From positions 2,790,001 through 2,854,000 of the forward strand of contig NZ_CP091975.1 of the NCBI RefSeq assembly GCF_029016285.1: a stretch of 64,000 bases of DNA, given 5' to 3'. This DNA comes from Vibrio sp. DW001 (GTDB taxonomy: Bacteria > Pseudomonadota > Gammaproteobacteria > Enterobacterales > Vibrionaceae). Below, piece after piece: positions 51,832-58,015 of the stretch (position 1 is its first letter; each line of letters opens with the position of its first letter). The notes beneath the pieces are model-generated. The model had not been told where the DNA came from, ran no database searches, and was given only the letters and a program-made list of their open reading frames with translations. The translations under genes were made by a program, and so were the position numbers.

Positions 51832-52120
51832 TCACGTGATTATTAAGTTGTATTCAACTGTACTTTCACCGCTAGAACCTATCATTTTAAAACCAAGTTT
51901 CTTCAGAATGGACGCACTACTAACGTTCCAGTTATGAACTCCTGCGCACACAACCTCGGCAACCTTCACTTTGATTATGAAAGCGCAAAGATTCGCACAT
52001 TTGAGTTGCTATTCCTTGCCTCCACGGTTCAGGACCTACCCAATAGGCCAAAGCGAGGCGATTTTCCTGTGGAAGCAGAGTAACCTGTCCGACGGCTACT
52101 GAATCCAATAAACATAAGAC
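51832..52120 (-). pseudogene. Frameshifted GNAT acetyltransferase
   Basis: The minus strand encodes a GNAT fold in two frames. The first part reads VAVGQVTLLPQENRLALAYW and VGPEPWRQGIATQMCESL; the second, in another frame, reads KVKVAEVVCAGVHNWN and ASILKKLGFKMIG and ends at TGA at 51832. The shift lies near 51980. No start codon exists upstream (TAG in frame), so the N-terminus is lost as well. A once-functional acetyltransferase of RimJ/RimL type is inferred. Confidence 0.75.
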
Positions 52121-52232
52121 CTAAGAACTTATCTCATGATATTAACTTGTTAGCAATACAAGCATCTCGCAATATACGTCACATCGTCGAAATCACTTCA
52201 CTGCATCAACTGTTAAATTATGAATAATAAAA

Positions 52233-52248
52233 TTTGATACAAATCACA
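52233..52248. promoter_or_regulatory. Candidate CRP site (distal) of the PTS-PFK operon
   Basis: TTTGAT-ACAA-ATCACA; the right half is exact and the left half has one mismatch to TGTGAT. It is 152 bases upstream of the first gene. Confidence 0.45.
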
Positions 52249-52324
52249 AAACAAGACCCTCATCACATATATAAACACATTTATTAAAGACGTAGATCCC
52301 AAAATGGCATGTCAACCATACATT

Positions 52325-52342
52325 TAGTGATCTTCATCACTT
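52325..52342. promoter_or_regulatory. Candidate CRP site and promoter of the PTS-PFK operon
   Basis: AGTGA-TCTTCA-TCACT keeps the CRP core GTGA-N6-TCAC. A perfect -10 hexamer TATAAT follows at 52352-52357, 43 bases before the first gene. The spacing to the inferred start is shorter than the usual class II geometry, so the site may act as a repressor-like or overlapping site. Confidence 0.5.
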
Positions 52343-52399
52343 TTTACGAATTATAATGCGTGCACAATAGATACATAGATATTATTAAGGACGTTAAAT

Positions 52400-53380
52400 A
52401 TGCGAATAGCGCTTACAGTGAGTGGTGGAGATTCCACTGGAATAAATAACTTCATATTCCAAATAGCAAAGTTAACGAATGCTGAAATAACCATATTTAA
52501 TGGTGGAATTAATGGATTACTTGAAAATAATCATACGGTTGTTTCATATCGTGATTTACTCGACTTTTCCACATCATCAATGCCAATTATTTCTGCCGGG
52601 AGGACCGAGCGAAATCTAAAAGAAAGTGAATATTTACAAATCGTCAAAAATTTAAAATCCAACAAAATTGATTTATTAATTCTTGCTGGTGGCGATGGTT
52701 CAATGTTGTTTCTTAAAGCACTAACCGATTACGGAGTTAATTGCTTTGGGGTTGGTATGACCATTGATAATGACATTGAAGGAAGTCAATACACCATCGG
52801 TTTCTCAACTGCTTGCGAACAAGTATTGAAAGAAGTCGCCAAACTGAGAAATACAGGTCGAGCACTACCTAACCGAGTATTTATGGTGGAAGTTTTAGGC
52901 GCGTACTGCGGGGAATTAACCTTGCAATCCGCCATAAAATCTAACGCTGATTTTGCGTTAATACCTGAGCACCAGATTCCAATTCGGGAATTAGCACGCA
53001 AAGTTAACGACAAATTAACGACTCAAAACTCGGTAGTGATTTTATGCTCTGAGAGTTACACCGATGAGTATGTATCTGGATTCCAGGGTGCCATTGATAC
53101 TGTAATAAAGAAACTAGAACCTTTAATTAGTGTAAGAATTCGAAAAAGCATTATGGGTTTTAGTTTAAGAAATGGAGATCCAACAACTGAAGAAATATAT
53201 CAAAGTACAAGCCTAGCTAATGAATTAGTGCACTGTATTAATTCTGGAATGGTTAATAAAGCAATAGTAATAAATTATGCCAATAAGCCTATACCTATTG
53301 ACTTAGATAGTGTCAAAAGTCGTCGAGTGGATATTGATGGGCATTATTTTAACCTAGCTCGAGAATTAAAAATAATATAA
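52400..53380 (+). CDS. Phosphofructokinase-family sugar-phosphate kinase
   Basis: A 326-residue PfkA-type protein. It keeps the ATP loop (VSGGDSTGINN), GGDGS at 97-101, the catalytic TIDND at 121-125, R248 and R257 (E. coli R243, R252 equivalents). It lacks two residues that hold the 6-phosphate of fructose 6-phosphate: E. coli R162 is A168 (LGAYCGELTL) and H249 is F254 (IMGFSLRNGD). The allosteric arginines are not recognisable. A different phosphosugar is inferred, the product being a bisphosphate for the aldolase encoded downstream. First gene of the PTS operon. Confidence 0.88.
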   Translation: MRIALTVSGGDSTGINNFIFQIAKLTNAEITIFNGGINGLLENNHTVVSYRDLLDFSTSSMPIISAGRTERNLKESEYLQIVKNLKSNKIDLLILAGGDGSMLFLKALTDYGVNCFGVGMTIDNDIEGSQYTIGFSTACEQVLKEVAKLRNTGRALPNRVFMVEVLGAYCGELTLQSAIKSNADFALIPEHQIPIRELARKVNDKLTTQNSVVILCSESYTDEYVSGFQGAIDTVIKKLEPLISVRIRKSIMGFSLRNGDPTTEEIYQSTSLANELVHCINSGMVNKAIVINYANKPIPIDLDSVKSRRVDIDGHYFNLARELKII

Positions 53381-53389
53381 GGATAAAAG

Positions 53390-53686
53390 ATGAGTATTAA
53401 AGTTTTATGTGTATGCGGTGCTGGCCTTGGTTCTAGTTTTGCAATTGAAATGGCAGCAAATGCTGTACTAGAAGAAATGGGCATTGATGCTGATTTAGAT
53501 CACACCACAGTTTCAGAAGCCGTAGCTTTAGATTTTGACATCATGCTAACTCAAAAGACGTTTGCAGATTCGATGCGTGAAGGTATGTCACAAGAACGAG
53601 TTGATAAAATCATCGTCTTACATAGATTGACAGATAAAGTGGAAATTAGAGAAAAAATCACAGCCTTACTGGAAAATAATAAGTAA
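53390..53686 (+). CDS. PTS ascorbate/lactose-type IIB component
   Basis: A 98-residue IIB protein of the UlaB/SgaB type with the phospho-Cys loop at the N-terminus (VLCVCGAGLGSS, Cys 9 most likely). It accepts phosphate from the IIA at 56462 and phosphorylates the sugar brought in by the IIC at 53910. The stop codon TAA is part of the first heptanucleotide repeat unit that follows, so the last codons are within the repeat. Confidence 0.9.
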   Translation: MSIKVLCVCGAGLGSSFAIEMAANAVLEEMGIDADLDHTTVSEAVALDFDIMLTQKTFADSMREGMSQERVDKIIVLHRLTDKVEIREKITALLENNK

Positions 53687-53768
53687 TAAGTAATAAGTAA
53701 TAAGTAATAAGTAATAAGTAATAAGTAATAAGCAATAAGCAATAAGCAATAAGCAATAAGCAATAAGT
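53678..53768 (+). repeat. Heptanucleotide tandem repeat in a PTS operon
   Basis: Thirteen uninterrupted 7-base units: seven AATAAGT, five AATAAGC and one AATAAGT (91 bases). The array contains the stop codon of IIB and ends 141 bases before IIC. Two blocks of identical variants suggest slippage expansion. Every unit contains TAA. It is followed by short AT-rich inverted repeats around TAGCTA (53803-53826). Unit number may vary between strains and change IIB-IIC message spacing. Confidence 0.95.
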
Positions 53769-53909
53769 AAAAAAATAAACAACCAATTAATCTACCAATT
53801 AAATAGCTAGCTATATAGTTAGCTATTCAATCAGCTATATAAAATAAATAGATAACCAAATAGATAACTAACAATTACTTACACTCCAATAACTCAAGAG
53901 GTATTTACT

Positions 53910-55280
53910 ATGGGTGCAATATTTGATTTTATTGTAAAAGATCTGCTCGGTCAGGCATCTATTCTCATCGCTTTGATGGCAATGATAGGCCTGATTGTAC
54001 AAAGAAAACCTACTGGAAAAATCATCGAAGGAACATTCAAAACTTTATTAGGCTTTATGGTAATGATGGCGGGTATTAACATCGTCGTTGCTACATTAAC
54101 CTTTTTGAATGACATTTTTACCAACGGTTTCGGCATGACCGGTTATGTGACTGATGTTGGTGCTATTGCTGGCATCGCAGCGAAAGAGCTCGGTACTGAA
54201 GTAGCATTAACTCTGATTGTCATTTTTGCTGTTAACATCCTAGTTGCTCGCTTTAGTCCTTGGAAGTACATATTCCTAACAGGCCAAGCATTGTTATGGA
54301 TGGCTACTATTGGTGCCGTTATGGGATATAAAGCAGGGCTTACTGGTCTTCCTTTAATCTTAGTCGGTGGTATTTTCGGCGGTATCATGGCTGTGATAAT
54401 GCCAGCTATTGCCCAACCTGTTGTTCGGAAAATTACAGGCTCTGATGACATCGCATTAGGTCATTTCTGTACGATTGGTTACATGTTCCAAGCTGCTGTT
54501 GCAAAAGTAGTCGGTAAAGGTTCTAGATCTACTGAAGATTTGGTGCTTCCGGAATCAATGAAATATTTGTCTGACACATACGTATCAATGGCTGTAGTCA
54601 TGGTTCCAATGTACATTATTCCGACTATCGCTGCTGGTCCAGAAATGATAGCAACTTATGCTGGTCAGATGAATTACATCATGTATGCATTCATTCAAGC
54701 AATTCAGTTTGTTACCGGTGTTTTTGTTTTATTAACAGGTGTTCGCCTTCTAATTAGCTCCCTTGTACCTGCATTTCAGGGGATTGCCGCTCGCCTTGTG
54801 CCAAATGCCAAACCCGCTCTAGATTGCCCGGTCTTATTCCCATATGCACCAAATGCAGTAATAGTGGGTTTCCTCGCGACAACAGTTGGCTCCATTATTG
54901 GCATGTTGGTATTCCCTATGTTCGGTCTAGCCATGATTCTACCTGGGCTACTAACGAACTTTTTTGCAGGGGGTACAGCAGGTATCTTCGGTAACGCAAT
55001 GGGAGGGCGTCGTGGTGCCATCATTGGCGGTGTCGCTCATGGTTTATTTATTACGTTCCTACCAGCAATCCTCATTCCACTACTAGAAAGTTATGGTTTC
55101 ATAGGCGTAACGTTCTCTGATTCTGACGTTATCTCGACGGGTCTATTACTGGGCCATGCATTTAACGGTAATTGGATGTTTGTTATCGGCTTTGTAGCTT
55201 TCTGTGCTGCTATTGCTACTTTCGTAAACCTAGGTATCAAGAAAGAAAATAAAGCTTCAAGCCAAACAGCTAAGGCTTAA
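53910..55280 (+). CDS. PTS ascorbate-type IIC permease
   Basis: A 456-residue membrane protein of the UlaA/SgaT family with about eleven hydrophobic segments and the family stretch DCPVLFPYAPNAVIVGFLAT. E. coli UlaA (about 465 residues) carries L-ascorbate. Here the neighbours are a sugar-phosphate kinase and an aldolase rather than the ascorbate catabolic genes, so a different substrate is likely. It is preceded by AAGAGGT and followed by an intrinsic terminator. Confidence 0.92.
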   Translation: MGAIFDFIVKDLLGQASILIALMAMIGLIVQRKPTGKIIEGTFKTLLGFMVMMAGINIVVATLTFLNDIFTNGFGMTGYVTDVGAIAGIAAKELGTEVALTLIVIFAVNILVARFSPWKYIFLTGQALLWMATIGAVMGYKAGLTGLPLILVGGIFGGIMAVIMPAIAQPVVRKITGSDDIALGHFCTIGYMFQAAVAKVVGKGSRSTEDLVLPESMKYLSDTYVSMAVVMVPMYIIPTIAAGPEMIATYAGQMNYIMYAFIQAIQFVTGVFVLLTGVRLLISSLVPAFQGIAARLVPNAKPALDCPVLFPYAPNAVIVGFLATTVGSIIGMLVFPMFGLAMILPGLLTNFFAGGTAGIFGNAMGGRRGAIIGGVAHGLFITFLPAILIPLLESYGFIGVTFSDSDVISTGLLLGHAFNGNWMFVIGFVAFCAAIATFVNLGIKKENKASSQTAKA

Positions 55281-55291
55281 CTAACTATCAT

Positions 55292-55324
55292 TGGTAGCCA
55301 GCCTCTGGCTACCATTTTTTATTT
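55292..55324 (+). terminator. Intrinsic terminator inside the PTS operon
   Basis: Stem TGGTAGCCAG / CTGGCTACCA with a CCT loop and TTTTTTATTT tail, ending 13 bases before the aldolase start codon. It is a textbook terminator, so transcription of the aldolase, IIA and kinase genes needs read-through or their own promoter. AAAGGA between it and the ATG serves as ribosome binding site. Confidence 0.9.
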
Positions 55325-55337
55325 AAAGGATTATCGA

Positions 55338-56180
55338 ATGAAACTTAAGAATTTTACAGAACTCAATGCAATTTCAAAAGAACGTGGTTTTAATGCTATC
55401 GGCTCATTTAACTTACATAATTTAGAAGCGCTCCCTGCTTATTTTTCAGCAGCTGTTGAAACAAATACACCGTTGATGATTCAAATTTCTACAGGTACAG
55501 CAAAGTTTCTTGGTTACGAGTTATTAGTTGATTCAGTAAAATCGTTATCACGCACGCATAATGTGCCTGCTTGCTTACACCTTGACCACTGCTCAATTAT
55601 TGATGACATTCAAGTAGCTATTGATGCTGGCTTTAGTTCCGTTATGTATGATGGTTCTCACCTTCCTATAAGAGAAAATATTGCCAATACAAAGAAGGTA
55701 ATTGATATCGCAAAACCGCTTAACATCACGGTAGAAGCAGAACTTGGCGCAATTGGCGGAGCAGAAGACGGTCAAGCTATTGCTGACGAGGATATCGCGT
55801 TTACCAAAGTCGAGGACGCAGTTAAGCTCCTCAGTGAAGCCCCTGTGGATATGCTCGCTGTTAGTATCGGTACAGTCCATGGTTCCTACACTGCCAAAAC
55901 AGATATCCAACACGATTTACTTTGTGAGATAGCTAAAGCAACATCAACTCCGTTGGTACTACATGGTGGTACCGGTGTAAGCAATGATGACATGCATTTT
56001 GTGGTTAAAAATGGAATCGACAAAGTGAATGTTGGCACTGAAATGAATGTTCAGTGGGTAAGAAAATGCAAAGAAACTTTTGAATCAGGTAAGGTCAACG
56101 ATTCGGTAAGAAAATTTCTAATTCCGGCTAATGAGGCAGTTAAGAACACCTTAGTGGATAAAATTAGCTTATTTAAATAA
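55338..56180 (+). CDS. Class II ketose-bisphosphate aldolase
   Basis: A 280-residue zinc aldolase of the FbaA/GatY/KbaY family. Zn ligands and catalytic residues are in LHLDHC, VEAELG, SIGTVHGSY and LVLHGGTGV; the phosphate site is in KVNVGTEMN. It splits a ketose 1,6-bisphosphate into two triose phosphates. Whether it prefers fructose, tagatose or another isomer is not clear from sequence. The neighbouring PFK-like kinase is its likely source of substrate. Confidence 0.92.
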   Translation: MKLKNFTELNAISKERGFNAIGSFNLHNLEALPAYFSAAVETNTPLMIQISTGTAKFLGYELLVDSVKSLSRTHNVPACLHLDHCSIIDDIQVAIDAGFSSVMYDGSHLPIRENIANTKKVIDIAKPLNITVEAELGAIGGAEDGQAIADEDIAFTKVEDAVKLLSEAPVDMLAVSIGTVHGSYTAKTDIQHDLLCEIAKATSTPLVLHGGTGVSNDDMHFVVKNGIDKVNVGTEMNVQWVRKCKETFESGKVNDSVRKFLIPANEAVKNTLVDKISLFK

Positions 56181-56188
56181 GGGTTGTT

Positions 56189-56455
56189 ATGGGATGGTTT
56201 AAAAACTTTTTTGGCAGTAGCAAACCAACTGAGCCTGTAGATGAAACTCAAGCTTCGACCTTGTATTCTGAGATAAGAGCTTTAGAAGTTGTTCTTGAAG
56301 AAGACGATTCGGATTCCGAAGTCCACAAAGAGTTGATGAAAAAATATAATAGAGCCGTGTCTGTGTATGCTTCATGTCCGTCATTCAACCAACACATTGA
56401 CGAAACATTTGAGAAGATTGAATCACTGCGCGGTGTCATAAGAAAAAATATGTGA
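56189..56455 (+). CDS. Small acidic protein of unknown function
   Basis: An 88-residue protein between the aldolase and IIA genes, with 8 and 6 base gaps, so it is a true operon member. It begins MGWFKNFFGSSKP, an amphipathic start, followed by an acidic helical part (ALEVVLEEDDSDSEVHKEL) and a second helix. No family is recognised. A regulatory or adaptor role for the PTS proteins is conceivable but not supported by any motif. Confidence 0.78.
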   Translation: MGWFKNFFGSSKPTEPVDETQASTLYSEIRALEVVLEEDDSDSEVHKELMKKYNRAVSVYASCPSFNQHIDETFEKIESLRGVIRKNM

Positions 56456-56461
56456 GGTCTT

Positions 56462-56899
56462 ATGTCAATAAAAGAAGCACTAATCAACGCAAATGCAATT
56501 CAAGTCGGTGTTGATTGTAAAGATTGGAAAGAAGTCATTGCTATTGCAGCAAAGCCATTATTGGTTTCGGGTAAGATTACGGACGCCTATATTGAAGGTA
56601 TCATTTCAAGCACAATAGAGCACGGTGCTTATTACGTCCTCGGTGAAGGTGTAGCGATACCCCATGCACGACCTGAATGTGGAGCATTGGATACAGGGTT
56701 TTCTATGGTGATATTAAAAACCCCTATTTCAATTGAGGGTTCTGAAGATGTTGATATTCTAGTTATGTTTAGTGCCAAAGACAGCAATAGTCATATTCAA
56801 GATGGCATCAAACAGATCGTTGAAATGTTGGATGATGATACCAAATTGCTAAGTTTGCGTAATGCAACGACAGTAAAGGAGGTAGTAGATTTACTATGA
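56462..56899 (+). CDS. PTS IIA component (fructose/ascorbate type)
   Basis: A 145-residue IIA protein with the phospho-His in VAIPHARPECG (His 68). The family (PTS EIIA type 2) includes UlaC, partner of ascorbate-type IIB and IIC. Its stop codon overlaps the start of the kinase gene (ATGA), so the two are translationally coupled. Confidence 0.92.
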   Translation: MSIKEALINANAIQVGVDCKDWKEVIAIAAKPLLVSGKITDAYIEGIISSTIEHGAYYVLGEGVAIPHARPECGALDTGFSMVILKTPISIEGSEDVDILVMFSAKDSNSHIQDGIKQIVEMLDDDTKLLSLRNATTVKEVVDLL

Positions 56900-57420
56900 G
56901 CACAAAGATCATTTTAGTTAATGGTGTCCCAGCGAGTGGTAAAAGTACAGTTGCTAAATTGATTGCATCACATATAGGTGCTGCTTATCTATCTGTTGAT
57001 ACATTCAAAGAACCTTTCATGAATATTTACACTGCATTAGATCGTGATTTTAATCGTGAATTGGGAAAGGCAGCTTATCAAGCCTTGTGGAATACTGTAA
57101 AAGACAATTCCGGCATTTTTGTTATTGATGCTTGGTTTGGCTTCCAACCAAAGGAAATATTAGAGGAATACCTTTCAGAGGTTAGTCCATGTACTGTGCT
57201 TGAAATCTGGAATAATATTGACTCTGACAATGTTGTAAAACGGTATAAAGTCCGTATTCCATTGCGGGATCACCGGCATCCTAAAGAAGAGTATCTTCCA
57301 CAACTTAGAAAGCTAAATGACTCCGCCGAACCGATGGGGATTGGTCTTACCTATATTGTGGATCAAAATAAACCATTGGATAATAATTCAATTACGTCAT
57401 GGATTGACGAAAATATTTAG
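56896..57420 (+). CDS. P-loop kinase of unknown substrate
   Basis: A 174-residue nucleoside-monophosphate/shikimate-kinase-like protein with Walker A VNGVPASGKST at 8-18, a DTFKEP segment and an Arg-rich lid (RYKVRIPLRDHRHP). Homologous folds include gluconate kinase and antibiotic phosphotransferases. Given the operon, phosphorylation of a sugar or sugar acid is likely, but the substrate is not readable. It overlaps IIA by 4 bases and is the last gene before a terminator. Confidence 0.82.
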   Translation: MSTKIILVNGVPASGKSTVAKLIASHIGAAYLSVDTFKEPFMNIYTALDRDFNRELGKAAYQALWNTVKDNSGIFVIDAWFGFQPKEILEEYLSEVSPCTVLEIWNNIDSDNVVKRYKVRIPLRDHRHPKEEYLPQLRKLNDSAEPMGIGLTYIVDQNKPLDNNSITSWIDENI

Positions 57421-57445: not shown

Positions 57446-57470
57446 GGCCCCCGATGAGGGGGCTCTTTTT
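57446..57470 (+). terminator. Terminator of the PTS-PFK operon
   Basis: Stem GCCCCC / GGGGGC around GATGA, followed by TCTTTTT. It is 26 bases after the kinase stop. Confidence 0.9.
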
Positions 57471-57652: not shown

Positions 57653-58015
57653 TTAGATCATGAAGATGAGTACAATAGACAGCACGGTAATAGAGCTAGC
57701 AATTGAATAGCAAACAACTTTACCAACCACACCAGTGTGCAGTTTTAGGTCGTGCATACCGTGGTGAACACGGTGCATGGCATGCCACATTGGAAGGGCG
57801 AGTGTTCCGATGATAAAGAGGGCGCCAATAAAGCTGGTTGCAAAATCGGCAACGCGCTCATAACTCATCGCTTCCGCATCAATAATTCCGAGGGGGGCAA
57901 GGATACCTATCACCAATACGGTAATTGGGGTGATCATGGCAAACCAGGTACCACCGGCACCAAATAGACCCCACCATACGGGCTCGTCTGAACGTTTTGG
58001 ATGTTTATTAACCAC
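57653..58015 (-). CDS. frdD: Fumarate reductase membrane anchor FrdD
   Basis: A 120-residue membrane anchor with three hydrophobic helices and the FrdD pattern ([36 protein letters not shown]). With FrdC it fixes FrdAB to the inner membrane and provides the menaquinol site. It begins 10 bases after frdC. Confidence 0.96.

Follow-up and report, generated by a model that had tools for sequence, protein, structure and literature searches.

A 64,000-nucleotide stretch of the Vibrio sp. DW001 genome (contig NZ_CP091975.1, positions 2,790,001 to 2,854,000; hereafter the window) carries seven co-directional genes that form a real, conserved module built around a phosphoenolpyruvate-dependent sugar phosphotransferase system (PTS). 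We did not find this module described in the open-access literature searched: no paper describing the operon was found among titles and abstract openings, and the part of PMC9007349 available to us does not mention it. We hold it to be moderately probable that the genes make up a self-contained catabolic module in which a ketose would be imported by the PTS, phosphorylated a second time and split by aldol cleavage. The public names "6-phosphofructokinase", "PTS sugar transporter" and "AAA family ATPase" hide this putative catabolic unit in its carriers, which include relatives of Klebsiella oxytoca as well as members of Pantoea, Serratia, Vibrio, Enterococcus and others.

In the proposed pathway, a monosaccharide would be taken up by IIA, IIB and IIC and receive a phosphate on the way, most likely on its terminal carbon, and a PfkA-like kinase and/or a P-loop kinase would add a phosphate at the opposite end. 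The class II aldolase would then cleave the ketose bisphosphate to dihydroxyacetone phosphate and an aldehyde phosphate, which for a hexulose would be glyceraldehyde 3-phosphate, while a small protein resembling tetratricopeptide repeat (TPR) proteins would act as a conserved accessory, perhaps an adaptor. From the sequences we infer in which order the reactions run, that the substrate is a ketose, what the products are and what the small protein does. The scheme of second phosphorylation and cleavage had been put forward in the original prediction, made from the letters of the window, and it is partly supported as the best reading of the conserved unit, the retained kinase arginines and the replacement of the aldolase in some loci. 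As for the substrate, we guess at one of the D-ketohexoses tagatose, psicose and sorbose, rather than fructose. Knowing the sugar would name a nutrient used across the carrier groups, would allow the motif MT[IV]DN versus GTIDN to separate the cluster kinases from true 6-phosphofructokinases, and would test the P-loop family as sugar-phosphate kinases.

The features of the module in the window are the following.

52070-52399, + strand: upstream control region with CRP-like sites
52400-53380, + strand: predicted PfkA-family (PF00365) sugar-phosphate kinase with the cluster-specific MTIDND motif (open reading frame, Pfam)
53390-53686, + strand: PTS IIB (PF02302; open reading frame, Pfam)
53677-53770, + strand: heptanucleotide array (TAATAAG)13.4 between IIB and IIC, following the IIB stop codon
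53910-55280, + strand: PTS IIC of the EIIC-GAT family (PF03611, 398 bits; NF009551 above cut-off; Pfam, NCBIfam)
55292-55314, + strand: terminator-like hairpin between IIC and aldolase, a 10-bp stem followed by T6
55338-56180, + strand: class II ketose-bisphosphate aldolase (PF01116; TIGR00167 above cut-off; Pfam, NCBIfam)
56189-56455, + strand: small protein of 88 residues, probably TPR-related, with a three-helix model (profile comparison, model)
56462-56899, + strand: PTS IIA (PF00359, PTS_EIIA_2; Pfam, NCBIfam)
56896-57420, + strand: P-loop kinase with an adenylate/gluconate-kinase-like fold (Pfam matches below cut-off, model)
57446-57464, + strand: terminator-like hairpin after the last gene

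All seven genes that the original prediction had placed at 52400-57420 are plus-strand open reading frames, and the closing terminator that it named corresponds to the hairpin after the last gene. It had also noted that no isomerase is encoded, which holds for the seven genes. The intergenic distances are, in order, 9, 223, 57, 8 and 6 bp, followed by a 4-bp overlap. Because the gene order is conserved, the seven genes are likely to be read from a single transcript, a picture that is qualified by the internal hairpin and by the 223-bp gap between IIB and IIC. This gap is about 20 bp in 17 Enterobacterales loci and at most 66 bp in others. The heptanucleotide array is unique in the host genome, as judged by a three-unit pattern with up to one mismatch, and it could change in length and so alter the spacing of IIB and IIC.

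Gene order is conserved in a patchy set of gammaproteobacteria

We collected 52 distinct loci, the window counted, of which 29 are gammaproteobacterial and 23 belong to Bacillota. The order seen in the window recurs in 26 of the 29 gammaproteobacterial loci (the window is one of the 26) and is therefore not due to chance; the check proposed by the original prediction, whether the genes keep this order in other genomes, thus shows them to be conserved as a unit. In the other three loci (a Sodalis praecaptivus plasmid, G162 and G405), the genes for the PfkA-like kinase, IIB, IIC, small protein, IIA and P-loop kinase are followed by a gene for an aldolase of the DeoC/LacD family (class I). This assignment comes from Pfam and NCBIfam runs on the Sodalis protein, to which the terminal aldolases of G162 and G405 are 75% and 90% identical. 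When the species-genome collection was scanned by pattern with the kinase, a procedure that reaches close relatives only, 18 loci were returned, one in Salibacterium and 17 in Enterobacterales, and all of the latter have the seven genes in the window's order. The small gene of one locus (L043) was missed by the first tblastn search, yet it is present.

The distribution is patchy. A cluster-type kinase (>60% identity) occurs in two of 61 genomes near the host (37 of them from its genus), namely the host itself and G019, and in 12 of 394 genomes of the host's order at E ≤ 1e-60, the host counted. When 369 genomes of the class of G062 were searched with IIC, only G062 matched at E ≤ 1e-135. Megablast, which diverged copies would escape, gave no match to the Klebsiella michiganensis cluster in 20,395 E. 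coli records and none to the window cluster on plasmids; a protein search of PLSDB found the kinase and IIC on two records, Sodalis and CP125156. The IIC gene of G019, a genome of the host's genus, is broken into two frames (L079, 9505-10877), which reflects either an assembly error or decay.

No regulator is common to the flanks of the 17 of the 29 gammaproteobacterial loci for which flanks were listed, as read from translations and annotations. The absence of a local regulator, as originally predicted, thus stands for these flanks and does not extend to Bacillota, where a BglG-type regulator is local in all 23 loci. A DeoR gene adjoining the Serratia locus was considered as a linked regulator and rejected, the other flanks being variable.

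The PfkA-like kinase keeps its phosphate-binding arginines and departs from ordinary phosphofructokinases

The first gene encodes a member of the PfkA family, which matches PF00365 over the whole domain with 192.4 bits (cut-off 30.9). In NCBIfam it scores 198 bits, below the cut-off of 253 bits for the housekeeping ATP-dependent 6-phosphofructokinase. To describe the active site we use the numbering of E. coli PfkA and presume its residue roles, in which R162, R243 and R252 hold the 6-phosphate and D127 is the base. Across 41 distinct cluster kinases (29 gammaproteobacterial and 12 Bacillota rows), compared with four housekeeping PfkAs, R72, D127, R162, E222, R243 and R252 are invariant. A phosphosugar substrate, as foreseen in the original prediction, is plausible because the phosphate-binding arginines are kept in all 41.

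The cluster kinases are thus like housekeeping PfkA in family, in the phosphate-binding arginines and, for the gammaproteobacterial copies, in the GGDGS motif. They are unlike it in a partly altered effector site and in four positions: G124 is replaced by M, M169 by L or F, R171 by G or A, and H249 by Y or F in each of the 41 sequences. All 41 carry MT[IV]DN[DN], whereas each of 21 other phosphofructokinases (PFKs) carries PGTIDND with G124 kept, and 20 of these 21 have the MGR motif (the remaining one was not matched by the pattern). At the level of sequence, then, the cluster kinases can be told apart by G124M and not by H249 alone. Our reading of these changes is that the enzyme would act on a sugar phosphate that is not fructose 6-phosphate, or not that one alone. 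The effector residue R21 is lost in all 29 gammaproteobacterial and in 11 of the 12 Bacillota rows, and all 29 of the former have Q and N in place of K211 and K213, so that allosteric control of the kinase has probably changed.

The host encodes two further PFKs with the ordinary motif (L177 and L178), to which the cluster kinase is 30% and 27% identical. Only the PFK gene of L178 adjoins a triosephosphate isomerase gene, as judged by eye.

The small protein and the P-loop kinase link the module to a Bacillota form

The small protein was listed in the original prediction and is present; its relationship to TPR proteins had not been foreseen. It has no Pfam or NCBIfam family above cut-off. In a profile comparison it is similar to the TPR protein of the Bacillota operons over 61 columns (probability 93%, E 2.7e-07 for a single comparison). 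Its structural model has three helices, with a predicted local distance difference test score (pLDDT) of 82.8. Foldseek gave no significant match to this model (best E 0.26); the first three fold matches are TPR proteins that superpose poorly, and a better superposition is reached with other three-helix folds, for example 1tqg (template modelling score, TM, 0.65). Taken together, the small protein is probably TPR-related.

The last gene encodes a P-loop small-molecule kinase, as indicated by its Walker A motif and its adenylate/gluconate-kinase-like fold. Matches to AAA_18, AAA_33 and CPT are all below cut-off. N9, G10 and P12 to S17 of the Walker A motif are invariant in 36 aligned rows chosen from 120 listed, and the model (pLDDT 93.2) is closest to the uncharacterised kinase 2rhm (TM 0.80), followed by adenylate and gluconate kinases. 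The gammaproteobacterial and Bacillota P-loop kinases match as profiles over 98 columns with a probability of 93%. The original prediction had listed this gene, and had not anticipated that it is conserved and may encode an alternative second kinase.

This possibility comes from the Bacillota form, which was found by IIC searches; among 398 genomes of the class to which G061 belongs, five were found to carry it. It consists of the BglG-type regulator with IIA, an optional PfkA-like kinase, IIB, IIC, the TPR protein, a class II aldolase and an optional P-loop kinase. Eleven of the 23 loci have only the PfkA-like kinase, another 11 have only the P-loop kinase, and one has both. Because the two kinases are nearly mutually exclusive in Bacillota, each may serve as the second kinase in place of the other. 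This pattern goes back to few evolutionary events, since four changes on the IIC tree suffice for all five label groups. A PFK search covering nine of the 11 P-loop-only genomes (two Enterococcus genomes were left out) found a cluster-motif PFK in none of the nine, one PFK in four of them and two PFKs in five. The second PFK of these five (L158, L160, L169, L171 and L174) has GGEGS, H249F and an ordinary GTIDN motif; it is a possible candidate for the missing kinase and speaks against a simple exchange. The few tree changes and these second PFKs weaken kinase exchange as strong evidence. One may go further and suppose an undescribed PTS pathway of two phyla, in which a repurposed PfkA-type or a new P-loop sugar-phosphate kinase would carry out the second phosphorylation and the TPR-type small protein, always encoded beside the transporter genes, would couple import to kinase and aldolase; we regard this extended version as speculative and rather improbable.

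Several observations weigh against import, second phosphorylation and cleavage as we propose them. The gammaproteobacterial loci were found mostly through the kinase, so that its occurrence in every one of them is in part a product of the search; in 11 of the 23 Bacillota loci the PfkA-like kinase is absent and hence dispensable. If, on the other hand, the PfkA-like enzyme does the whole job, the P-loop kinase is left without a task. The kinase stays below every NCBIfam cut-off, that of the housekeeping enzyme and those of the other 11 families listed. The change at position 249 is not exclusive, as the other PFKs have H in 16 of 21 and F in five. Effector residues are partly retained, D59 and R154 in all 29 gammaproteobacterial rows, E187 in all 41, and K211 with K213 in roughly half of the Bacillota rows. 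In place of D103, 11 of the 12 Bacillota kinases have N or E, which could mean altered catalysis.

Aldol cleavage as the probable conserved task, and the tagatose and pentulose alternatives

The aldolase is a class II ketose-bisphosphate aldolase, scoring 275.3 bits with PF01116 and 251.5 bits with TIGR00167, both above cut-off. The presumed metal-ligand and catalytic residues are invariant in all 49 aldolases compared. The enzyme matches models and structures of GatY, KbaY and class II fructose-bisphosphate aldolases, and passes no specific fructose- or tagatose-bisphosphate NCBIfam model. The best evidence for the step comes from the three variant loci: because an enzyme of the LacD/DeoC family replaces the class II enzyme there, the sequences suggest that aldol cleavage, with a ketose (bis)phosphate as substrate, is the task that has been conserved, in agreement with the cleavage step of the original prediction.

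Two known tagatose routes resemble the proposed pathway. TagK of the tagatose PTS is a PfkB-type kinase, as is LacC of the LacABCD pathway, which takes a ketose 6-phosphate through the 1,6-bisphosphate to triose phosphates. The LacABCD pathway shares with the module the LacD/DeoC-family aldolase of the three variant loci; it differs in its LacAB isomerase, which has no counterpart here, and in the family of its kinase. The tagatose PTS (tagKTH with gatY, in enteric bacteria and Bacillus licheniformis) shares PTS import, second phosphorylation, a class II aldolase and triose phosphates, according to the part of PMC10101011 available to us, and its transporter is related to the fructose PTS, whereas the module has an EIIC-GAT IIC and a PF00365 kinase. 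Neither a TagK-type kinase nor a fructose-like transporter is found in the module, and we do not file it as a member of the tagatose pathway because both its transporter and its kinase are of other families.

A D-tagatose pathway, in which tagatose would enter as tagatose 6-phosphate, gain a second phosphate from the PfkA-like kinase and then be split by the aldolase, would be a special case of our proposal, and we consider it possible but doubtful. It is favoured by the matches of the aldolase to the GatY and KbaY models, by the Sodalis aldolase being nearest to "tagatose 1,6-diphosphate aldolase" models, and by a report, in the same partly available source, that E. coli PfkA converts tagatose 6-phosphate to tagatose 1,6-bisphosphate (PMC10101011). 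However, the aldolase stays below the cut-offs for GatY (229 of 383 bits), KbaY (170 of 542) and TIGR01858 (214 of 444), and its score with the fructose-bisphosphate model TIGR01859, 268 bits, exceeds that with TIGR01858. The LacD-type matches of the Sodalis aldolase are likewise below cut-offs, and the known tagatose clusters use the fructose-like transporter with TagK (PMC10101011, as far as available). For psicose, the available part of PMC6020474 describes a locus with a permease and an AlsE-type epimerase.

A pentulose or heptulose could take the place of the hexulose, with a 1,5- or 1,7-bisphosphate being cleaved to dihydroxyacetone phosphate and glycolaldehyde phosphate or erythrose 4-phosphate. 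The changed sugar-facing residues of the kinase would suit such a substrate, and an RbtT/DalT-type transporter with dehydrogenases lies near the Salibacterium locus and a D-arabitol-type operon, read by eye from translations, beside one Mangrovibacter locus. Such neighbours were not seen at the other loci with flanks listed, and we think this pathway unlikely. We also considered reading the substrate from neighbouring genes in general; the pentitol-type genes at these two loci and the ula genes at two others (L074 and L088) are single occurrences and were not used as proof.

The transporter resembles UlaA at the family level

IIC matches the UlaA structure 4rp8, belongs to the UlaA family and passes the cut-off of the NCBIfam model "PTS ascorbate IIC" (NF006919). 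The "ascorbate-type" label of the original prediction therefore fits the IIC family and applies at that level only, IIC being 29% identical to the IIC of an ula operon. The lactonase, decarboxylase and epimerases of the Ula pathway are missing, as had been predicted, in that Pfam and NCBIfam identify no UlaG, UlaD, UlaE or UlaF among the seven genes, to which the search was confined. Compared with the L-ascorbate PTS pathway, the module is thus alike in the family of IIC and unlike in having none of the downstream Ula enzymes; judged by its sequences, the seven-gene set is not an Ula pathway.

It could still serve as a side branch in the catabolism of L-ascorbate or a related acid. Besides the family of IIC and its score with NF006919, this is suggested by the Bacillota locus L088, where the module has a UlaG gene on one side and further ula genes on the other, and by the gammaproteobacterial locus L074, which has an ula operon close by. 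These are, however, the only two of the 52 distinct loci with ula genes within 6.5 kb on the same strand (the tally covers that strand and distance), another gene intervenes at L074, and it is from the ula operon of L074 that the 29% identical IIC comes. To our knowledge, a kinase and a class II aldolase are no part of the Ula route, and we consider an ascorbate branch distinctly improbable.

Redundant use of fructose, imported as fructose 6-phosphate and taken through a repetition of glycolysis, would fit the glycolytic families of all the enzymes, but it is very improbable, as all 41 cluster kinases differ from ordinary PFKs at positions G124, M169 and R171 and the host already has two other PFKs with the ordinary motif.

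The upstream region carries paired CRP-like sites

The sequences upstream of the module suggest that its expression would be under CRP. We scored CRP-like sites against TGTGA-N6-TCACA (10 consensus bases) in 32 distinct upstream regions and in 200 shuffled sets; the regions are related and hence not independent tests. In 30 of the 32 regions a middle site that matches the consensus at 8 or more of the 10 bases lies 140-160 bp ahead of the start, and all 30 have a downstream partner of at least 7 of 10 bases at exactly 74 bp, or about seven helical turns. The shuffled sets gave at most 2 for the middle site and 0 for the 74-bp partner. A third site further upstream is found in 27 of the 32 regions (at most 3 in the shuffles). 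In the window, where the original prediction had placed a CRP-like site, such sites lie 232 (7/10), 167 (9/10), 148 (7/10) and 74 bp (8/10) before the kinase ATG. The window is one of the two exceptions at the threshold of 8 bases, its middle site scoring 7; it keeps the pair, with the sites at 148 and 74 bp exactly 74 bp apart, and has the extra 9/10 site at -167.

The module occupies a variable site in the host

The gene set sits at a variable site, because in a close relative (G022) the same flanks, 91-94% identical, enclose different genes over about 7.6 kb. The gene set has a G+C content of 38.3%, and the remainder of the window one of 41.8%. At this site in G022 (L153, 6935-14506), open reading frames resembling LeuC/LeuD, LysR, an alpha/beta hydrolase, a permease and an ADP-ribosylglycohydrolase were recognised by eye, and we read the site as a variable one for metabolic genes. 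Next to the module, the gene for FrdD, a fumarate reductase subunit (57653-58015), has a second copy with 93% identity at G000:C1:278021, and G022 likewise has two FrdD copies (FrdD alone was tested).

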